Positions 19,865 through 42,668 of a stretch of DNA of 64,000 nt are shown here, in pieces. Position 1 is the first letter of the stretch. Every line of letters begins with the position of its first letter. The notes under the pieces are model-generated. The model worked only from the letters and a program-made list of their open reading frames with translations. It did not search any database and had not been told where the DNA came from. The DNA comes from Phycisphaerales bacterium. GTDB lineage: Bacteria > Planctomycetota > Phycisphaerae > Phycisphaerales > UBA1924. The DNA is taken from the NCBI GenBank assembly GCA_020847535.1, contig JADLBU010000035.1:50575-114574 (forward strand). The letters run 5' to 3'. Both the position numbers and the translations under genes were made by a program.

Positions 19865-21097
19865 TCAACCACGGCCGGGAACCACAGCACACGAAAGCAC
19901 GCGGATGCCGTGATCCTGCAGAGAGCGATGGAGATCGGCGATGTGAGCGGCATCACGCGTCTCGACCGTGCAGACGACGCGGACGGTGGAGATGTCAGCG
20001 CCGCCGAAGGCGCGGTCGTGGTCGATGTGCTTGACGCTGGCTCCGGCGGCAGCGATCGCGGCCGCCAGGTCGGCCAGCCCGCCAGGGCGATCCGAGATCA
20101 CCGCCGTGAACTGCGTGAGCCGGCCGCCGGTGACCATGCCGTGCTCGATCACGCGGCCCATGATGGTCATGTCGATATTGCCGCCGGCGAGCACGAGGAC
20201 GACCCGCTTGCCGGCCAGGTTCTTGAGCTTGCCGGCGATGAACGCAGCCAGGGGCACAGCGCCAGCGCCCTCGACGATGCCCTTCTCGAGCTCGGCGAGC
20301 CTGAGGATAGCCAGCGCGATGTCTTCCTCCTCGACCAGTTCCACGCGATCGGTACGGTCCCTGGCGAGCGCAAATGCGCGAGCCCCGACTTCGGGCACCG
20401 CCAGGCCATCGGCAAGCGTGGGTCGCGGCTCGACGCGCACGGGCTTGCCCGCGGCGAGCGAGGCCTTGAACGTGCTGGCCCGCGCCGGCTCAACGCCGAC
20501 GATCTGCGTCCGCGGGTTTGCCGTCTTGACGGCCAGGGCGATCCCGGCGAGCAGGCCCCCACCACCGATAGGGACGATGATGGCATCTGGATCGGGAACT
20601 TGCTCGAGAATCTCGAGGGCGATGGTGCCTTGCCCGGCGATCACCTCGGGCCCGTCGAAGCCGTGAATGTAGCTCTGGCCCTCCGTGGCGGCGATCGAAT
20701 CGGCGAGCCTCTTGGCCTCGGCGATGTTGGCGCCTTCAAGTATGACCTTGGCGCCCAGCTCTCGACACCTGGACTGCTTGATGAGCGGGGCAAAGGTCGG
20801 CATCACGACGTTGACGGGGATTGAGAGTTCCCTTCCGTGGTACGCGAGCGCCAGGGCGTGGTTGCCCGCGGAGGCGGCGATCACTCCTTTGGCCCGGCGA
20901 TCATCGGGGAGCAGCATGAGCGCATTGCGCGCGCCGCGCTCCTTGAAGCTCCCAGTCGCCTGGAGGAACTCGAGCTTGCTGTAGATCTCGCATCCGCAGA
21001 GCTGCGAGAGCGCCTGGGAACGCTCGCAGGGGGATGAATAGATCCCAGCGGCGATCCGTTTGCGAGCGGCAAGGATGTGATCGAAGGTGACATCCAC
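19865..21097 (-). CDS. ilvA: Threonine dehydratase (biosynthetic type with ACT domain)
   Basis: PLP enzyme, about 410 aa, converting threonine to 2-oxobutyrate, the first step to isoleucine. I use the GTG at 21097 (VDVTFDHILAARKRI); the ORF's earlier residues are not conserved-looking and run through an intergenic hairpin. The PLP lysine is Lys52 in TGSFKERGARNAL. The glycine-rich phosphate loop IVPIGGGGLLAGIA and the late GGNIDM block are present. The last ~75 residues form one ACT-like domain (TAVISDRPGGLADLAAAIAAAGASVKHI), so isoleucine or valine control is possible. It is the last gene of the aspartate-family operon, 121 bp after the trifunctional gene, and draws on the threonine branch supplied by that enzyme. 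Confidence 0.9.
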   Translation of the reverse strand: MDVTFDHILAARKRIAAGIYSSPCERSQALSQLCGCEIYSKLEFLQATGSFKERGARNALMLLPDDRRAKGVIAASAGNHALALAYHGRELSIPVNVVMPTFAPLIKQSRCRELGAKVILEGANIAEAKRLADSIAATEGQSYIHGFDGPEVIAGQGTIALEILEQVPDPDAIIVPIGGGGLLAGIALAVKTANPRTQIVGVEPARASTFKASLAAGKPVRVEPRPTLADGLAVPEVGARAFALARDRTDRVELVEEEDIALAILRLAELEKGIVEGAGAVPLAAFIAGKLKNLAGKRVVLVLAGGNIDMTIMGRVIEHGMVTGGRLTQFTAVISDRPGGLADLAAAIAAAGASVKHIDHDRAFGGADISTVRVVCTVETRDAAHIADLHRSLQDHGIRVLSCAVVPGRG

Positions 21098-21148
21098 TCG
21101 GGCGAGTGTAGACGCGTGCGATGCCGATCCGTTCCATCGCAAAGGGCA

Positions 21149-21189
21149 GCCGGGCGTGGAGCGGGTTGAGAGCCCGCCCCACGCCCGGC
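21149..21189 (-). promoter_or_regulatory. Intercistronic GC-rich hairpin between the fusion gene and ilvA
   Basis: An 11-bp stem GCCGGGCGTGG / CCACGCCCGGC, extended inward by GCGGG/CCCGC across a bulge. In the transcribed minus direction no T run follows, so it is unlikely to be a simple terminator. It could stabilise or process the mRNA, or reduce readthrough into ilvA. Confidence 0.5.
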
Positions 21190-21218
21190 AAAGGGGAGGA
21201 AACTTGAGGAACAATGAA

Positions 21219-24056
21219 TCAGGCGATCACGACCGCCCCGAGCAGATCGGCGATCTGTATCGCGTTGGTCGCGGCCCCCTTGCGGAGCTGGTCCCCGCAG
21301 GCGAGCAGGCACCAGGAATCGCACTCGACCCCGGGACCGATCTTCGCGGCCGGATCCTGGCGCAGACGGCCGACCAGGACATCATCTCTGCCGGTTGCCC
21401 GCAGCGGCGTCGGGAAGCTGTTGCCGCCGCGATCGTCCACGATCGTGACCCCTGGCGCTTCGCTGAACGCCTCGCGGACCTGGGCCTCGGTCACCGGGCG
21501 GCTGAGGCGCACGGTGATCGCCTGTGTGTGGGCCCGCACCACCGGCACGCGAACGCATGTCGGCGTGATCGGCAGATCGGGATCGTTCCAGATCTTGCGG
21601 ACCTCATCGATGATCTTCTGCTCTTCGATGTTCAGTCCGGTCTGGGGATCGACCGCCGAATCGTGGCTGAAGACGTTGAATGCACACGGCTCCCGGAAGA
21701 ACGAGGGCGCCGGCTCGTGGCCCTCAAGCACTCGCCGCGTCTGGGAGCGGAGCTCATCGATGGCGCCCAGACCAGCGCCGCTGACGGCTTGGTAGGTCGC
21801 GACGATGAGCGACTCGACGCCGAAGGCCCGGCGCAGCGGATTGACCGCCGCACAGAGGATGACCGCCGAGCAGTTGGGGTTGGCGATCAGGCGCGGGCCG
21901 GTGGAACCCTCCGAAAGCTCCGAGCCGTTGATCTCGGGGACGATGAGAGGAATCTCGGGATCAAGCCGGAACGCTGAGGAATTGTCCACGACGTTTGCCC
22001 CGGCCCGGATCGCCGCCGGAGCGAACTTGCGAGCGATATCGGCGCTGGCCGCGAAGATCGCCAGGTTACTCCCCTTGAACGAATCCTCCTTGAGCGCCTG
22101 CACCAGCAGTTGCTCGGCGCCGTACGCCAGCGTGGTGCCGGCGGAATTCTCCGAAGCGAGCGCGACGATCGATGCGCTGGGAACTCCGCGGGAATGGAGG
22201 ATCCGCAGCGCCTCGCGCCCGACCGCGCCGGTGGCGCCGACGACGGCGATCCGCGGGGCGGGTCCGGACTTGAGTTCAAAGCTCACAACTTCCTGCGTGT
22301 TCGCGTGGGGGATTGCAGAGGCCGGCGAACAGACGGCCGGGAGTGTCGAACGGGTGAGACGACGAAGCTCCAGGAGATCGGCGAGCACGCTCTGGGCCGT
22401 CGGCCAGCGGCCTGCGCCCGTGCCGCGATGCGTGGAGGTCGATCCGTCAGAACATCGAATCACCAGGGCGTTCTCCGGACCACGCAGTGCGGCGAGCGGA
22501 TTGGGGGCTGAGAGCAGGCGCGGCTCGATCGATCCGACGATGCCCTCCGGTGTACGGCGAGCCGCGGCGACCAGGCGGATGACCTGATCGGTTCGCCGCT
22601 GGTCGAGCAGTTCCTGCACCGTCGCCTCGGAGATGCCGGTGCGCTGGAATTCGCGCCAGTCCACGCACTCTCCGAATGCGTGGAATGCAAGGATCGCGAG
22701 CTTCTGAGCCGCATCGATCCCTTCCAGGTCCGTTGAGGGGTCGGCCTCGGCGAACCCCTTGTCCTGGGCGAGCTTGACCGACTCGGCGAACGTGCGTCCC
22801 AGCGTCACCTGCTCAAGGATGAAGCTGGTGGTGCCGTTGATGACGCCCTCGACGCTGTCGATGAGGCGGTTTGAACCGGTCTCGCGGACGATCGCCTGCA
22901 CCGCCTCGACCAGCGGCGCTGCGCCGCCGACTGCCGCGGAATACCGCAGAGAGCCGCCGGTCCTGGATGCCAGATCTCGCAGCTCCGTACCGTGCTGGGC
23001 AATCAGGGCCTTGTTGGCGGTCACGATGTGCTTGCCGGCGCTGAGTGCAGCGCGGACGGCGTGATAGGCGGTGTCCACGCCTCCGAGCAGCTCGACGACG
23101 ACATCGTCCCCGCCGGCCTGGGCAGCGCGGAGGGCCGAACCAGTGAGCAGATCGGAGGAAATTGTCTGGGAACGCGTGCGGGCCGGATCGCGGACGGCGA
23201 TCCTGGTGATCGCAAAGTCCGATCCCAGCGGCTGAAGCAAGTCATGCACACCGCCGCCGACCGTACCGGCTCCCAGAAGGGCGATGCGGAGAGGTGAAGG
23301 GGCCTGTGTCGCCGTATAGAACTCATCGGGACCCGCTCCGACCAGCGAGACATCCCCGCGCTGGAAGGCACCGACTTCGAAAGTCAGGCTGCGATCCCGG
23401 GCGAGCCGGACGGCCTTGTGCTGGATAACGCCGCCATCAAGCGTCAGCGCGGTGCTCCAGGAGATCGTGCGGAATCGCTTCGCCGGCGGGCCGGGGAGCG
23501 CCGGATCCCGGTCGTAGAGGCCATCGACATCCTTGATGAGCCGGCAGCGATCGGCGCCAAGCTCGGCGGCGAGGAAGAGGGCGGTCAGGTCCGACCCGCC
23601 GCGGCCCAGCAGCGTGAACTGGTTGTCATCATCGACACCGACGAAGCCGGGGACGATGACGACAGGGGCTTCGTCGAGCGCCTTCTCGATGACCCGGCGA
23701 TCGATCGAGGCCGGATCGGCATCGATGCCAGCGCCGCGCGTGCGGAGCTGGATCGCCTGCGGACCAAGCACGCGAGCCGAGATGCCCGCCCGTGCGAACG
23801 CCAGCGACAGGAGCGAAGCGGTGGTGAACTCACCGGTCGCCAAGAGCAGGGCGCACGCCTTGTCATCGGTGGCATCGGTATACGAGCGTGCCTGGTTGAG
23901 CAAGCGATCGGTCGTGCCCTCGAAGGCCGAGACCACGATGACAACGCGGGATCCCTCGCGGACCCAGCGGTAGGCCTCGTGGACGCCCTGGCGGAGATCC
24001 TCCTCGTTGCGGAGGACCGAGCCGCCGAACTTCAGTACGGTCAGCGGGTAGCGCAC
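21219..24056 (-). CDS. Trifunctional aspartate kinase - homoserine dehydrogenase - aspartate semialdehyde dehydrogenase
   Basis: A single uninterrupted 945-aa frame with three enzymes. Aspartate kinase is residues about 1-250: KFGGS (9-13), LGRGGSD (150-156) and KDVDGLYDRDP. Homoserine dehydrogenase is about 255-570: GAGTVGGG (262-269), TANKA, VINGTTSFIL and GFAEADPSTDLEGIDAAQK. Aspartate semialdehyde dehydrogenase is about 601-945: GATGAVG (607-613), VDNSSAFR, catalytic Cys729 in NPNCS, TYQAVSGAG, His843 in RAHTQ and GAATNAIQIADLLG. All key residues I can check are present. Together they take aspartate to homoserine. The ACT domains that normally follow aspartate kinase or homoserine dehydrogenase are missing: domain 2 begins directly after domain 1. 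It overlaps the upstream cystathionine gamma-synthase gene by 16 bp, so translation is probably coupled. I know bifunctional ThrA-type fusions but no described enzyme of this composition. Confidence 0.93.
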   Translation of the reverse strand: MRYPLTVLKFGGSVLRNEEDLRQGVHEAYRWVREGSRVVIVVSAFEGTTDRLLNQARSYTDATDDKACALLLATGEFTTASLLSLAFARAGISARVLGPQAIQLRTRGAGIDADPASIDRRVIEKALDEAPVVIVPGFVGVDDDNQFTLLGRGGSDLTALFLAAELGADRCRLIKDVDGLYDRDPALPGPPAKRFRTISWSTALTLDGGVIQHKAVRLARDRSLTFEVGAFQRGDVSLVGAGPDEFYTATQAPSPLRIALLGAGTVGGGVHDLLQPLGSDFAITRIAVRDPARTRSQTISSDLLTGSALRAAQAGGDDVVVELLGGVDTAYHAVRAALSAGKHIVTANKALIAQHGTELRDLASRTGGSLRYSAAVGGAAPLVEAVQAIVRETGSNRLIDSVEGVINGTTSFILEQVTLGRTFAESVKLAQDKGFAEADPSTDLEGIDAAQKLAILAFHAFGECVDWREFQRTGISEATVQELLDQRRTDQVIRLVAAARRTPEGIVGSIEPRLLSAPNPLAALRGPENALVIRCSDGSTSTHRGTGAGRWPTAQSVLADLLELRRLTRSTLPAVCSPASAIPHANTQEVVSFELKSGPAPRIAVVGATGAVGREALRILHSRGVPSASIVALASENSAGTTLAYGAEQLLVQALKEDSFKGSNLAIFAASADIARKFAPAAIRAGANVVDNSSAFRLDPEIPLIVPEINGSELSEGSTGPRLIANPNCSAVILCAAVNPLRRAFGVESLIVATYQAVSGAGLGAIDELRSQTRRVLEGHEPAPSFFREPCAFNVFSHDSAVDPQTGLNIEEQKIIDEVRKIWNDPDLPITPTCVRVPVVRAHTQAITVRLSRPVTEAQVREAFSEAPGVTIVDDRGGNSFPTPLRATGRDDVLVGRLRQDPAAKIGPGVECDSWCLLACGDQLRKGAATNAIQIADLLGAVVIA

Positions 24057-25339
24057 GCGACACCTCCCTTGGAGCCGGTGGCAATGGGGCCGGTAGCAAT
24101 GGTTTCGGTTGAGTTGGCGGTTTCCTGAGCGGCGGCCGCGATCGCCTGCTCGAGATCGGCGATGATGTCCGCAGGATCCTCGATACCGACGGAGAGACGG
24201 ATCAGGCCATCGGTGAGACCGACGCGCTCACGCTGCTCGCGGGGGACATCGGCGTGCGTCATGCTCGCCGGGTGCGTCAGAAGCGTTTCGACGCTGCCGA
24301 CGTGCTCGACGAGCCGGCAGAGCTTGGCGGAGTTGAGGAGCTTGATGCCCGCGGGAGTACCGCCCTTGATTTCGAAGGAAATCACACCGCCGTGGAGGCC
24401 GCCGATGTGCTGACGCTCGGCGATCTCGCGCTGGGGGAAGTCCTTCAGACCTGGGTAGTACACGGTCTCGATCTGAGGGTGACTGGCGAGCCATTCGGCG
24501 ATTCTTTGGGCGTTGCGCGACTGCTCCTTGAGCCGCAGGGGCAGGGTCTTGAGCCCCTGGATCGTGAGGAATGCGTTGAAGGGGGCCTGGATGTTGCCGG
24601 TGCACTTGCGGATCCAGCGGAGGCGCTCGATGAGCTTTTCATCGCGGCTGGTGACGGCACCGCCCAGCGAAGTTGAGTGGCCTTCGATGTGCTTGGTCGT
24701 CGAGTAGACGGTGACATCAGCGCCCAGATCCAACGGGCGCTGGAGGGCGGGCGTCAGGAACGTGTTGTCGACGATCAGAGTCACACCCGCGGCCTTGGTG
24801 ATGCGGGCGACACCCTGGATGTCCGTCAGCTTGAGCGTCGGGTTCGCCGGGGTTTCGATGAAGACCAGCTTGGTGCGCGGGGTGACCGCCGCGGCGATCT
24901 GGGCGATGTCGCTGGAATCAACGAAGGTCGCCGAGATGCCCAGCTCGCTGAGGACCTGCCGGAAGAGCCGCACGGTGCCGCCGTAGATGGCATCGGCGAT
25001 CACGGCGTGGTCACCGGCCCGCAGCAGCGTCAGGAAGAGCGCGGTCTCGGCGGCGAGCCCGGTCCCGAAGCAGACCGATGGAGGCGCATCTTCGAGGGCG
25101 CCCAACACGGCTTCGAGCTGGTCGACGGTTGGGTTTCCGACCCGTGAATACGTCGGGCCATCGCACTCCCCCACCGCCCGCTGGGTGTAGGTCGTGGACT
25201 GGACGATCGGGGTAATGAGCGGGCCCGTCGGGCGACGCTTGTCGAGCGGGCCGTGGAGGGCGATCGTGCTCGCCGAGAGCGCCTTGGCAGCGCCGGTACG
25301 GGTTGAGCAGGAGGTGGTCGGGTTCTTGGAAGTGGACAT
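24041..25339 (-). CDS. metB: Cystathionine gamma-synthase / O-acylhomoserine sulfhydrylase family PLP enzyme
   Basis: A 432-aa Cys/Met-metabolism PLP enzyme. The PLP lysine is Lys216 in YSTTKHIEGHS. Other family blocks are TYSRVGNPTVDQLE, ETPANPTLKLTDI, the cofactor-binding DAIYGGT and the C-terminal SVGIEDPADIIADLEQA. It probably condenses an activated homoserine with cysteine (to cystathionine) or with sulfide; the sequence does not settle which, and cystathionine gamma-lyase is a weaker alternative. The ATG at 25339 lies at the base of a hairpin that hides its GAGG ribosome binding site. A SAM-type riboswitch and a promoter lie upstream. It is the first gene of the operon, followed with overlap by the fusion enzyme that makes homoserine. 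Control by SAM supports a methionine-synthesis role. Confidence 0.85.
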   Translation of the reverse strand: MSTSKNPTTSCSTRTGAAKALSASTIALHGPLDKRRPTGPLITPIVQSTTYTQRAVGECDGPTYSRVGNPTVDQLEAVLGALEDAPPSVCFGTGLAAETALFLTLLRAGDHAVIADAIYGGTVRLFRQVLSELGISATFVDSSDIAQIAAAVTPRTKLVFIETPANPTLKLTDIQGVARITKAAGVTLIVDNTFLTPALQRPLDLGADVTVYSTTKHIEGHSTSLGGAVTSRDEKLIERLRWIRKCTGNIQAPFNAFLTIQGLKTLPLRLKEQSRNAQRIAEWLASHPQIETVYYPGLKDFPQREIAERQHIGGLHGGVISFEIKGGTPAGIKLLNSAKLCRLVEHVGSVETLLTHPASMTHADVPREQRERVGLTDGLIRLSVGIEDPADIIADLEQAIAAAAQETANSTETIATGPIATGSKGGVACATR

Positions 25340-25359
25340 GCCGTGAATCCTCACGGCAT
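25338..25359 (-). promoter_or_regulatory. Hairpin sequestering the RBS and start codon of the operon
   Basis: On the minus strand ATGCCGTGA / TCACGGCAT form a perfect 9-bp stem with a GGAT tetraloop. The Shine-Dalgarno GAGG straddles the loop, and the first two bases of the ATG start codon (25339-25338) close the stem. When folded, initiation should be blocked. Confidence 0.75.
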
Positions 25360-27409: not shown

Positions 27410-28363
27410 TCACGGGATCTTCACGGACCCTCGGAACACCTCGGCCGCCGGGCCGGTCATGTAGACACCCGCCGGCCGTCCAGCCGTCGCTTCACGCTGC
27501 CAAGCGATCCGGAGATCGCCGCCTGGGAGCCGCAGGATCGCCTCATCGGCCAGCCGGCCGGTCAGCGCCCCGGCAACCAGCACCGCGCATGCCCCGGTTC
27601 CGCACGCCGATGTCGCCCCCGCCCCTCGCTCCCAGGTCCGCATGGATCCGGCGATGTTCGTGCGGACCTCCACGAAATGGATGTTGGTCCTTTCGGGGAA
27701 CGCGGGCAGAGTCTCGATTACCGGCCCGAGGGTTTCGAGCGGGACCATGCGGACATCGCGGACGAATACAACGGCGTGCGGATTGCCCATCGAGATGCAC
27801 GTAACCGAGGGCTCGCTTCCCGACGCAACCAGCGGCTCAACCTGCCGCATCACATCCATCAACGCCTCATCCTGACATCCTTGCGCAAGCATCGACAGCG
27901 GCAGATCGATGACCCGATCTCGCATCGCCCGCACCGGGATCCCGGGTGCGTGCAGGATGGGCTCACCCATGTTGACCGTCACCGAATCCACGCTTCCATC
28001 CGCAGCGCGGGAGCACGAGACTTCAAGACACCCGCGGCCGGTCTGTATCCGCATCTGCGAGCGCTGCCACGAGCGATGCTCGATCATGTACTTGGCGATA
28101 CAGCGGATGCCGTTGCCGCACATCTGAGCCTCGGAGCCATCGGAGTTGAAGATCCGCATCCCCAGGTCCGCCGATGCCGCGGCGGTGCTCTCGTTGGCGG
28201 GGCAAATCACCAGGATGCCATCAGCGCCGATGCCGGTGCGGCGATCGCACCAGGCGGCGGTGAACCGCGGCCAGGGGAGCTGGATTCGCGAGGGATCATC
28301 GAGCGCATCGACGATGATGAAGTCGTTGCCCAGGCCGTGATACTTGAAGAAGTCGAGCATCAT
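27410..28363 (-). CDS. dapF: Diaminopimelate epimerase
   Basis: Cofactor-independent racemase, 317 aa, converting LL- to meso-diaminopimelate for lysine and peptidoglycan synthesis. The two catalytic cysteines lie in MCGNGIRCIAKY and GAGATSACGTGACAVL, and the N-terminal FFKYHGLGNDFIIVD block is typical. Length is slightly above the usual ~275 because of inserts near residues 65 and 120-150. Its start overlaps the stop of the FecCD permease gene by 4 bp (ATGA), so it is translated by coupling, although the two functions are unrelated. Together with anmK/murQ it supports a DAP-type peptidoglycan wall. Confidence 0.95.
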   Translation of the reverse strand: MMLDFFKYHGLGNDFIIVDALDDPSRIQLPWPRFTAAWCDRRTGIGADGILVICPANESTAAASADLGMRIFNSDGSEAQMCGNGIRCIAKYMIEHRSWQRSQMRIQTGRGCLEVSCSRAADGSVDSVTVNMGEPILHAPGIPVRAMRDRVIDLPLSMLAQGCQDEALMDVMRQVEPLVASGSEPSVTCISMGNPHAVVFVRDVRMVPLETLGPVIETLPAFPERTNIHFVEVRTNIAGSMRTWERGAGATSACGTGACAVLVAGALTGRLADEAILRLPGGDLRIAWQREATAGRPAGVYMTGPAAEVFRGSVKIP

Positions 28364-29373
28364 CCGAATCGCCCCCGGTCCCGGAGCAGGAGGATCAGGA
28401 GGGGACCCCCGATCAGGCTTGTCAACACGCCTATCGGCAGGCGACCGGAGCGGAGTTCAACCGCCCGCACGAGCGTATCGGCCCCGACCACCAGTGCAGC
28501 GCCCGCGAGCGCGGCGCCGAGGATCAGCCTCCGATGACCGGGCCCGGCGAACATACGGATCAGGTGCGGGCAGATGAGGCCGATGAAAGCCACCGGCCCC
28601 GCGAGAACGACGCTCGCCGCGGCGAGCACGCCCGAGGCGATGAACAGGAACGTGCGCAATGCACCCAGCGGCACACCCAGGGAGCGGGCTTCATCATCTC
28701 CCAATGAAGCTGCATCCATCCAGGGCCCCAGACGCCAGGCGGCAATCCCCAGGATGAGCACGATCAACCCGACGAGGGCGATCTGTCGCCAGGTGACATC
28801 GTCACCGATCGCTCCCAGCAGCCAGCGGGAAGCGGACACCCCGCGATCGGGGAGCAGGTGCTGGACAAAGACGGTGGCGCTGGCGGCGAGCACGCCGACA
28901 ATGACTCCCACCAGGAGCAGCGAAGCCGGTTCGATGAACCCCCGCCGTTGGCTGAGGAGGTACGTGATGAACAGGGCTCCCAAGGCACCCATCAGTGCCG
29001 GCGGGCCGGTCAGCGCCAGACCGACCTCTGAGATCTGTCCCGAAGTCACATACCGCAGGTATGAGGCCAGCACCACCCCCAGCCCCGCTCCGGATGCCAT
29101 TCCCAGCAGATCCGGAGAGGCCAGCGGGTTGCGGAAGAGGCACTGAAGACACGCCCCGGCGATCGCCAAGGCTGCTCCGACCACGATCCCGGTCGCCGCC
29201 CGCTGGGCCCGAAGCTCGATCACCGGATCCTTGAAGAAGGTCATTCCCCCGGTCGCGGAGAGCCGTGGCCCGGCCGATGCCGGGACCGAGCCACCGACCG
29301 AAATCCTGCTGAAAACGGCCGTGAGCAGCAGGATCAGGCAGATGGGGATGGCAAAGGCGGCCTTGGGACGCAC
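28360..29373 (-). CDS. FecCD-family ABC transporter permease
   Basis: A 337-aa inner-membrane permease of the BtuC/FhuB/FecD family that moves siderophore-iron, heme or cobalamin. About ten hydrophobic segments are visible, with family blocks RAATGIVVGAALAIAGACLQCLFRNPLASPDLLG, LLVGVIVGVLAAS, ARSLGVPLG and GPVAFIGLICPHLIRMFAGPGHR (the coupling-helix region for the ATPase). No ATPase or periplasmic binding-protein gene is adjacent in the window, so the partners are encoded elsewhere. It is translationally coupled to dapF downstream. Substrate cannot be assigned from this sequence. Confidence 0.88.
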   Translation of the reverse strand: MRPKAAFAIPICLILLLTAVFSRISVGGSVPASAGPRLSATGGMTFFKDPVIELRAQRAATGIVVGAALAIAGACLQCLFRNPLASPDLLGMASGAGLGVVLASYLRYVTSGQISEVGLALTGPPALMGALGALFITYLLSQRRGFIEPASLLLVGVIVGVLAASATVFVQHLLPDRGVSASRWLLGAIGDDVTWRQIALVGLIVLILGIAAWRLGPWMDAASLGDDEARSLGVPLGALRTFLFIASGVLAAASVVLAGPVAFIGLICPHLIRMFAGPGHRRLILGAALAGAALVVGADTLVRAVELRSGRLPIGVLTSLIGGPLLILLLRDRGRFG

Positions 29374-40287: not shown

Positions 40288-41277
40288 ATGCACCGCATCC
40301 TTCACATCGGCGTCGGGCCCCTCGGGCACCGCATCATCACCGAGATCGTCGAACGCGGCGTCGGGCGAATCGTCGCCGCCGTCGATTCCTCACCCATGCT
40401 CTCCGGGGAGCCGCTCGGCAAGGTCTGCCCCGCCGTGAAGGATGCGGTCACGATCTCCCCATCCGTAGATTCCATCCGCGACTGGGATGCGATCGACTGC
40501 ATGGTCATCACCACCAGCTCCGACCTGCGCCTCTGCGAGCCCACCATCCGCGCCGGCCTCGAACACGGCAAGCCCATCGTCAGCACCTGCGAAGAGCTTA
40601 TCTATCCCTGGCTCCGCCATCAGCAGCTCGCCGATCGCCTCCACCAGCTCGCCCTCAAGACCGGCGGCCGCGTCCTCGGCACGGGCGTCAACCCCGGCTT
40701 CATCATGGATGCCCTTCCCGTCTTCGCATCCGGTGTCTGCCGATCCGTGCGCGGGGTCCACATCGAACGAATCCAGGATGCATCCTCCCGCCGCGTCCCC
40801 TTCCAGAAGAAAATCGGCGCGGGCCTCGACACCGAGCACTTCGACAAGCGGGTCGCCGATGGCAGCCTCCGCCACGTCGGCCTCGGGGAGAGCCTCCACT
40901 TCCTCGCCCACTACCTCGGTCTGCCCAAGATCGAAGCCTGGGATGAGAACATCGAGCCCGTGTTCGCCGATCGGGAACTCTCCTGCGCCCTGGGGCCTAT
41001 CCGCAAGGGCATGGTCGCCGGCGTCCGGCAGGTCGCCAAGGGCTACGCCGGTGAGCGATGCATCGCCTCCCTGGAATTCCAGGCGGCGATCGGCCAGCCC
41101 GATCCGTGCGACCGGATCGTCCTCGATGGTGAGCCCCCGATCGACCTGACGATCAAGGGCGGTGTCCACGGGGATGTCGCCACCTCGGCGATCATCGTGA
41201 ATTCGATTCCCCGGATCATCGAGGCCGCCCCCGGCCTGCACACGATGGCGACCATCTCCACGGTCAGATGCCGGTAG
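40288..41277 (+). CDS. 2,4-diaminopentanoate dehydrogenase / DapB-like oxidoreductase
   Basis: A 329-aa NAD(P)-dependent dehydrogenase. The Rossmann start is MHRILHIGVGPLGHRIITEIV. DWDAIDCMVITTSS, TCEELIYPW and GTGVNPGFIMDALPV match the family of clostridial Ord (2,4-diaminopentanoate dehydrogenase), related to dihydrodipicolinate reductase. The C-terminal domain has the expected KGGVHGDVATSAIIVNSIPRI. In ornithine fermentation such enzymes convert 2,4-diaminopentanoate to 2-amino-4-oxopentanoate, but the rest of that pathway (OrtA/OrtB, aminomutase) is absent here. The next gene is an alpha-oxoamine synthase, which makes aminoketones, so the pair may act on one aminoketone/diamine. That pairing is inference. 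Confidence 0.75.
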   Translation: MHRILHIGVGPLGHRIITEIVERGVGRIVAAVDSSPMLSGEPLGKVCPAVKDAVTISPSVDSIRDWDAIDCMVITTSSDLRLCEPTIRAGLEHGKPIVSTCEELIYPWLRHQQLADRLHQLALKTGGRVLGTGVNPGFIMDALPVFASGVCRSVRGVHIERIQDASSRRVPFQKKIGAGLDTEHFDKRVADGSLRHVGLGESLHFLAHYLGLPKIEAWDENIEPVFADRELSCALGPIRKGMVAGVRQVAKGYAGERCIASLEFQAAIGQPDPCDRIVLDGEPPIDLTIKGGVHGDVATSAIIVNSIPRIIEAAPGLHTMATISTVRCR

Positions 41278-41501
41278 CGCGGGTAGTCGGGGAAAGGACG
41301 AGCCAGAGTTCGGGTTGTCCTGGGTGCTGAGTCATCGCGGCTGCGCCGTGCGCACCACCATGCGCCCCTCCTTCCCACGGCAACCATCAAAGCCCAGGAC
41401 TCCAAGATCCACGACGATTCCCTGCCCATTCTTCCGATCCTTCCGACCGCTCCAGCCGATATTCGCCCTGCCACGCCCGCACTACGATCACGGAACCCGA
41501 C

Positions 41502-42668
41502 ATGCCCCGAATCCCCATCCAGGCCAATACCGCCTCCACCATCACCGTCGATGGCCGGGAGCTGATCGCCTTCGGCGGCTGCAACTACCTGGGCCTGGGT
41601 CATCACCCCGATGTGAAGAACGCGATCGTGCGGGCGATGGGGTTCCTGGGCGTCACTACCTCGGCCTCCCGCGAAACCAGCGGCAACACCCTGGAGCACG
41701 AATACCTCGAATCGGAACTCGCCGGCTTCCTTGGGATGCAAGCCGCGATCCTGATGCCCGAGGGGTACACCGCCAACCTCGCGCTCGCCCAGGCGCTTGG
41801 CTCGCCCGCCGCCGCTCGCGGCGACGATCCCGGCATCGCCGTCATCGATGAGAAGTCCCACCGCAGCATCCGCAACGCCGTCGAGGCCGCCGGCTTCGTG
41901 ATCGCCGACTACGAGCATCTCAACGCCGCCGACGCCCTGCGTGCGATCCGCCAGCACATCGCCGCCCGACCCGGTCGTCGCATCTGTCTCTGGACCGATG
42001 GCATCTTCGCCGCCGACGGCTCGATCGCCCCCCTCCCCGAACTGCTCGCCGCTCTTCCCGCTTTCAACTCGGCGATCATCGTCGATGATTGCCACGGCTT
42101 CTGCGTCCTGGGCGCCCGCGGCCGCGGCGCCTGCGAGCACTTCAACCTGCGGGATCCCCGCATCATCTGGACCAGTACGCTCGCCAAGGGCCTGGGCTGC
42201 TACGGCGGGGCGATCGCCGGCTCCAGGGAACTCATCGACCTGGTCCGCTTCGAGGCCGGCATCTACAAGGGCACCACACCGGTCCCGCCGATCCTCGCCC
42301 ACGCCGCCCGAGAGGCCCTCCGCATCATCGATCGGGAGCCACACCTCATCCAGAGGCTCGAAGCCAATATCCGCCGAATCCGCCGCTCGCTCGCGGCAAT
42401 GGGGCTGCCCGTCATCGACACGCCGTCCCCCGTCATGACCTTCGTGCTTGATTCCCCCGCTCGCATGCGTGCCCTCTACGACCACCTGCTATCGGGCGGC
42501 GTTTTCATCCCGCTGATCGACTACCCCAACGGCCCCGCCCCCCTCTATTTCCGCCTCTCCGTGTGCGCGATGCACACCCCCGCCCAGATCGACTATCTCC
42601 TCCGCGTGCTCGAATCCTCGCTTGCCAGGACTGCCTCCCCGGCGTGTGCTCCCAGGGTCGCCGGATAG
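41502..42668 (+). CDS. Alpha-oxoamine synthase family PLP enzyme (BioF/KBL/SPT-like)
   Basis: A 388-aa PLP-dependent acyl-CoA:amino-acid condensing enzyme. Family landmarks are IAFGGCNYLGLGHHPDV, TTSASRETSGNTLEHEYLESELAGFLG, the aspartate-containing VDDCHGFCVLGARGRG, and the PLP lysine in TSTLAKGLGCYGGAIAGS. The C-terminal GGVFIPLIDYPNGPAPLYFRLSVCAMHT is typical. It could be 8-amino-7-oxononanoate synthase, 2-amino-3-ketobutyrate ligase or a serine-palmitoyltransferase-like enzyme; the sequence and neighbours do not decide. No biotin genes or threonine dehydrogenase are nearby. It lies 224 bp behind the diaminopentanoate dehydrogenase-like gene on the same strand. Confidence 0.82.
   Translation: MPRIPIQANTASTITVDGRELIAFGGCNYLGLGHHPDVKNAIVRAMGFLGVTTSASRETSGNTLEHEYLESELAGFLGMQAAILMPEGYTANLALAQALGSPAAARGDDPGIAVIDEKSHRSIRNAVEAAGFVIADYEHLNAADALRAIRQHIAARPGRRICLWTDGIFAADGSIAPLPELLAALPAFNSAIIVDDCHGFCVLGARGRGACEHFNLRDPRIIWTSTLAKGLGCYGGAIAGSRELIDLVRFEAGIYKGTTPVPPILAHAAREALRIIDREPHLIQRLEANIRRIRRSLAAMGLPVIDTPSPVMTFVLDSPARMRALYDHLLSGGVFIPLIDYPNGPAPLYFRLSVCAMHTPAQIDYLLRVLESSLARTASPACAPRVAG

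Follow-up and report, generated by a model that had tools for sequence, protein, structure and literature searches.

A single gene on the reverse strand of the window (the whole 64,000-nt stretch of DNA analyzed here; gene at 21219..24056) encodes aspartate kinase (AK), homoserine dehydrogenase (HSD), and aspartate-semialdehyde dehydrogenase (ASD) as one 945-aa polypeptide with a GTG start. The presence of three enzyme families in a single 945-codon fusion gene is real and far beyond chance, and intact orthologous fusions occur in two further genomes of the same genus of uncultured Phycisphaerales as the host, G339 (70% identity) and G276 (66%). The best explanation, which we hold to be highly probable, is that one chain takes aspartate to homoserine, that it is the only detected source of the three activities in its host, and that it arose through a single stop-loss.

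Reading frame, domains, and motifs

The frame (21219-24056, minus strand) runs through 945 codons with 0 internal stops. GTG24056 has no other in-frame start between it and the upstream stop codon, and a strong ribosome-binding site, AAGGGAGG, lies ahead of it. The beginning of the fusion gene and the 3' end of the metB-like gene upstream share 16 nt, and third-position GC stays high through the linker within the fusion.

The original prediction had placed the three enzymes on this frame, in an order corresponding to pathway steps 1-3-2, and had quoted motifs for each. All of those motifs are found in the frame, and a Pfam search recovered five domains, every one above cut-off, at positions that bear out the proposed order: AA_kinase (residues 5-211; 130 bits vs a cut-off of 24.9), NAD_binding_3 (residues 262-372; 55.6 bits vs 24), Homoserine_dh (residues 389-562; 148 bits vs 22.9), Semialdhyde_dh (residues 602-715; 100 bits), and Semialdhyde_dhC (residues 739-905; 137 bits). 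With domain extents set by NCBIfam and PDB alignments, and with Pfam matches and motifs in agreement, the chain divides into an AK domain lacking C-terminal ACT domains (residues 1-245; 23322..24056, minus strand), an HSD domain lacking a C-terminal ACT domain (residues 255-566; 22359..23294, minus strand), and an ASD domain (residues 601-941; 21234..22256, minus strand). Among NCBIfam models, the fusion exceeds the cut-offs of two ASD equivalogs (NF011456, 357 bits vs 223; TIGR01296, 327.7 bits vs 324.2) and of the HSD subfamily model PRK06349 (281 vs 205). Full-length aspartokinase models remain below cut-off (TIGR00657, 133.5 vs 208.7; TIGR00656, 147.6 vs 402), as expected if those models span the ACT region, which this protein lacks, and models of the ThrA/MetL type are likewise below cut-off (NF006959, 166 vs 726; NF007003, 124 vs 582). 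The AK domain can nevertheless be aligned to the solved aspartokinases 5yei and 3aaw.

At the level of individual residues, the AK domain contains KFGGS (9-13), LLATGE (71-76), GRGGSD (151-156), and KDVDG (175-179), and the HSD domain contains GAGTVGGG (262-269), ANK (347-349), NGTT (407-410), and EADP (437-440), as well as the D and K in DLEGIDAAQK. The active-site residues of the ASD domain (Cys729, Gln756, Lys814, Arg841, and His843) are invariant among aligned relatives and match those of PDB enzymes. We take the catalytic roles of the quoted AK, HSD, and ASD motif residues to be those known from these enzymes, and on the strength of such conservation all three domains are expected to be active. 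The kinase domain would then convert aspartate to aspartyl phosphate, the tethered ASD domain would convert aspartyl phosphate to aspartate semialdehyde, and the HSD domain would convert the semialdehyde to homoserine. These would be ordinary active sites, three on a single chain, with the benefit of the fusion lying in co-production and nearness. The protein is presumably not cut after translation, in which case the fusion would set a 1:1:1 ratio of the enzymes and hold them near one another.

Neighboring genes, linker, and fate of the intermediates

The fusion gene is part of a one-strand series that reads, in order, FecCD-type permease, dapF, metB-like gene, fusion, and ilvA. Directly upstream, the metB-like gene (24041..25354, minus strand) encodes a PLP enzyme of the cystathionine gamma-synthase/O-acylhomoserine sulfhydrylase type; downstream, ilvA (19865..21214, minus strand), encoding threonine ammonia-lyase with a C-terminal ACT domain, starts 4 nt after the fusion gene. 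In each of the seven relatives examined, a metB-like gene comes before the fusion or before the corresponding AK-HSD gene, and ilvA also follows the fusion in G339, while none was found in the 15 kb around the fusion of G276. The metB–fusion–ilvA cluster would direct homoserine into the methionine and threonine/isoleucine branches. An Rfam scan of the window matched one tRNA only, and thus gave no riboswitch before the metB-like gene.

Farther upstream of the metB-like gene, dapF (27410..28363, minus strand; TIGR00652, 266 bits vs 114.65) encodes diaminopimelate epimerase and shares 4 nt with the FecCD-type permease gene (28360..29373, minus strand); G276 and G339 likewise have dapF close to the fusion. 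Given the proximity of dapF, the semialdehyde likely also feeds diaminopimelate synthesis. No dapA scored above cut-off in the three fusion genomes, and 31 of the 163 genomes sampled from the family have one. The single DHDPS-family gene of the host (G000:C126:69044-69889; L078 1456-2394) was rejected as a true DapA at 159 bits vs a cut-off of 206; it follows an FAD-dependent oxidoreductase-like gene and may encode a catabolic enzyme. Elsewhere in the window (40288-42668, plus strand), a 2,4-diaminopentanoate dehydrogenase-like gene (DAP_DH_C; NF040740, 212 vs 400 bits) precedes a BioF/serine palmitoyltransferase-like gene, and neither reaches its equivalog cut-off.

An AlphaFold2 model of the fusion, computed from a shallow alignment of 12 sequences, contains three folded units (mean pLDDT 83, pTM 0.60), and in structure searches it matched solved ASD structures best, then HSD, and then an aspartate kinase. 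The short joint between AK and HSD is predicted with a pLDDT of about 80-86. The linker between HSD and ASD (residues 567-600; 22257..22358, minus strand), delimited by species comparison and predicted structure, falls below 50 at residues 571-599 and is predicted to be disordered; parts of the ASD domain, among them segments close to the active site (756-763, 789-799, and 835-839), also have low pLDDT in this 12-sequence model. Among the three fusions, identity is 75-81% in AK, 59-63% in HSD, and 70-74% in ASD, and in the linker it is 21-33%, with frame-preserving indels. The model thus suggests that AK and HSD form one unit, to which ASD is attached by a flexible tether of approximately 30 residues, an architecture offering nearness and a fixed ratio but no visible tunnel.

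This picture bears on the proposal in the original prediction that intermediates might be channeled between neighboring domains. Aspartyl phosphate and aspartate semialdehyde are reactive intermediates, which counts in favor of their being passed between active sites shielded from the medium, as does the placement of three consecutive steps on one chain holding the only copies in the genome. However, AK and ASD, which catalyze steps one and two, are not neighbors in sequence order; the tether of ASD is predicted to be disordered and is poorly conserved, differing among the three genomes in sequence as well as length; and the nearby true dapF suggests that semialdehyde is needed for diaminopimelate too, albeit with the above-noted lack of dapA matches in the three genomes. 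The channeling proposal therefore did not find support, and we consider it rather unlikely. A broader version, in which the protein is a self-contained, ACT-free homoserine synthase that serves its host as sole enzyme for the three steps, channels their intermediates, and is subject to some other control replacing ACT-based end-product inhibition, strikes us as doubtful. The group provides a natural test of channeling, because in close relatives these enzymes occur as two separate proteins.

The same poorly conserved, putatively disordered linker might instead mean that the frame is read through and the working enzymes are nonetheless separate, either because ASD is made by internal initiation or because proteases cut the linker. 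In the host, a weak in-frame GTG at codon 591 (22284-22286) is the only candidate start near the ASD domain; it stands 10 codons ahead of that domain, with the purine stretch AGGAAG just before it, and relatives do have AK-HSD and ASD as two proteins. Against this, the start of the fusion itself has a much stronger ribosome-binding site than GTG591, the start candidates in the G276 linker are at other positions, and the G339 stretch that connects HSD to the ASD fold is free of ATG, GTG, and TTG, which leaves the fusion as the only route to ASD there. Separate working enzymes are accordingly quite improbable, and we favor a single intact chain.

Sole copies and missing ACT domains

Whole-genome family searches of the host (4.94 Mb, 91% complete, 134 contigs) found one true member each of AK, HSD, and ASD, all in the fusion gene. 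Homoserine_dh has one match in the whole genome, and a search with the full-length fusion protein returned only itself. A candidate second aspartate kinase on contig C50 proved to be PyrH, beside a gene that is frr-like by sequence, and a second, weaker Semialdhyde_dhC match is probably ArgC. As the assembly is 91% complete in 134 contigs, it may have failed to capture a further copy of one of the enzymes.

One might still ask whether one of the fused domains is a noncatalytic remnant kept for assembly or regulation, HSD being the least conserved of the three (59-63% vs 70-81%); yet ANK, NGTT, EADP, and DLEGIDAAQK are all kept in HSD, and with no other HSD, AK, or ASD gene detected each domain would be needed for methionine and threonine synthesis, making a remnant very improbable indeed.

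Aspartokinases normally carry ACT domains, and the control that end products exert on the aspartate pathway through them is a textbook example. A Pfam scan found no ACT domain in the fusion. The original prediction had overlooked this loss of both regulatory regions, along with the single-copy status of the three enzymes and the side-by-side genes of relatives. Nor was there an ACT_9 match above cut-off anywhere in the host genome, whereas all 14 control genomes gave one. Two neighboring sub-threshold ACT_9 matches of 16-17 bits (G000:C20:16799-17164; L076 and L077) may reflect either a stand-alone ACT-like protein or chance. The ACT-less form extends beyond the fusions: in the 32 other tree sequences, nearly all from the same family, AK-HSD is 541-581 aa as aligned and ACT-less. 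Set against the 819 positions of the ThrA model, these lengths indicate that the ACT-less form is normal for the family and predates the fusion. Most of the family may, judging from sequence, do without classical feedback on aspartokinase, and control of the fusion would be exerted other than by the usual Lys/Thr-binding ACT domains. We regard this ACT-free control as the more puzzling side of the fusion: how is flux controlled in a lineage that has single copies of the three enzymes, joined in one polypeptide, and in which no ACT domain of the aspartokinase type can be detected? A feedback-insensitive enzyme of this kind might possibly be of use for amino-acid production.

Origin within the genus and relation to known systems

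To place the fusion among its relatives, we drew on overlapping samples of 163 genomes from the family, 400 from the order, 298 from the class, and 392 from the phylum. The family search included no members of the genus other than the host, G276, and G339, and no further intact fusion appeared outside the genus in any of the four samples; at the E 1e-130 threshold of the phylum search, a much more diverged fusion could escape. Elsewhere in the family, AK-HSD is encoded on its own, and asd often follows it immediately: in many relatives asd lies just downstream in another frame, and in several about one gene lies between the two. Apparent full-length fusions in G264, G282, and G504 were rejected because stops at the junction (two TGA in G264, one TGA in G282, and TAA followed immediately by ATG in G504) mark them as adjacent genes in one frame. 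In G358, G352, and G353, AK-HSD sits within a long frame, but these were also set aside, as the extra length proved to be upstream open frame and not ASD. Other arrangements were noted along the way. In G225, G270, and G388 (L015, L021, and L054), a short ACT-less kinase is directly upstream of asd with no HSD between; in G333 (L074 4882-10118), AK-HSD is flanked by two metB-like genes, the second of which lies between AK-HSD and asd, and this same second gene may account for the gap of about one gene in other relatives.

With stops alone between two in-frame genes in G264, G282, and G504, one base error could in principle have joined such a pair in the host; but the same open frame without a stop in three separately assembled genomes that are 65-70% identical, the differences among their linkers in both sequence and length, and the absence from G339 of a common start codon from which ASD alone could be translated leave an assembly or sequencing artefact a vanishingly small chance. 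The search for the same architecture in other genomes, which had been proposed at the outset, thus yielded an uninterrupted frame in both G276 and G339, and these two further assemblies rule out the feared sequencing error hiding a stop or frameshift.

The three fused sequences form one clade in both the AK-HSD tree (support 100/100) and the ASD tree (100/99). From these comparisons, the simplest account appears to be one event at the root of a single genus, either a stop-loss or a short deletion, that joined two adjacent genes. In the ancestor of the genus, an ACT-less AK-HSD gene would have lost its stop and run into the asd gene directly downstream, a small evolutionary step given that the two genes stand side by side in relatives.

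The original prediction had recognized no characterized enzyme with this architecture, and indeed the openly accessible literature (subscription journals lying mostly outside its scope) yielded no earlier description of a natural AK-HSD-ASD protein. What is new is the domain combination, which is apparently undescribed; each of the three enzymes is already known. Artificial fusions in the aspartate pathway were reportedly made by others around 2002 to test channeling.

Among single enzymes, the HSD of Thermus thermophilus (PDB 2ejw) is a short chain of 332 aa that aligns over the whole HSD domain of the fusion, but it stands alone. Bacterial Asd enzymes (PDB 2yv3, 2qz9, and 2gyy) share full-length homology and all catalytic residues with the ASD domain; to our knowledge the bacterial Asd enzymes are free-standing, whereas here ASD forms the C-terminal third of a longer chain. 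ThrA and MetL of Enterobacteria have AK followed by HSD on one chain, as here, with an HSD of the same superfamily. ThrA has ACT regions between AK and HSD, and the ThrA/MetL order is accordingly AK-ACT-HSD, whereas the present AK-HSD portion spans approximately 566 residues with no ACT domain and with ASD added C-terminally.

In a survey of 58 proteobacteria, AK-HSD fusions were found in gamma-proteobacteria only and asd was always single (Fondi and colleagues, 2007; PMC1885841); Xanthomonadaceae have a fusion of aspartokinase with diaminopimelate decarboxylase, AK-LysA (PMC1885841). The latter is also a natural fusion of AK to an enzyme of the aspartate-family pathway, but the two activities it unites are the first and the last of lysine synthesis, whereas the fusion described here joins consecutive steps to homoserine. 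Finally, other genera of the same family (for example, G264, G352, G353, G090, and G307) have an ACT-less AK-HSD with an adjacent asd, that is, the same domains in the same order, with a metB-like neighbor in those examined and with AK-HSD and ASD 45-62% identical to the fusion; there they are two genes, parted by stops or by frame, and here they are one.
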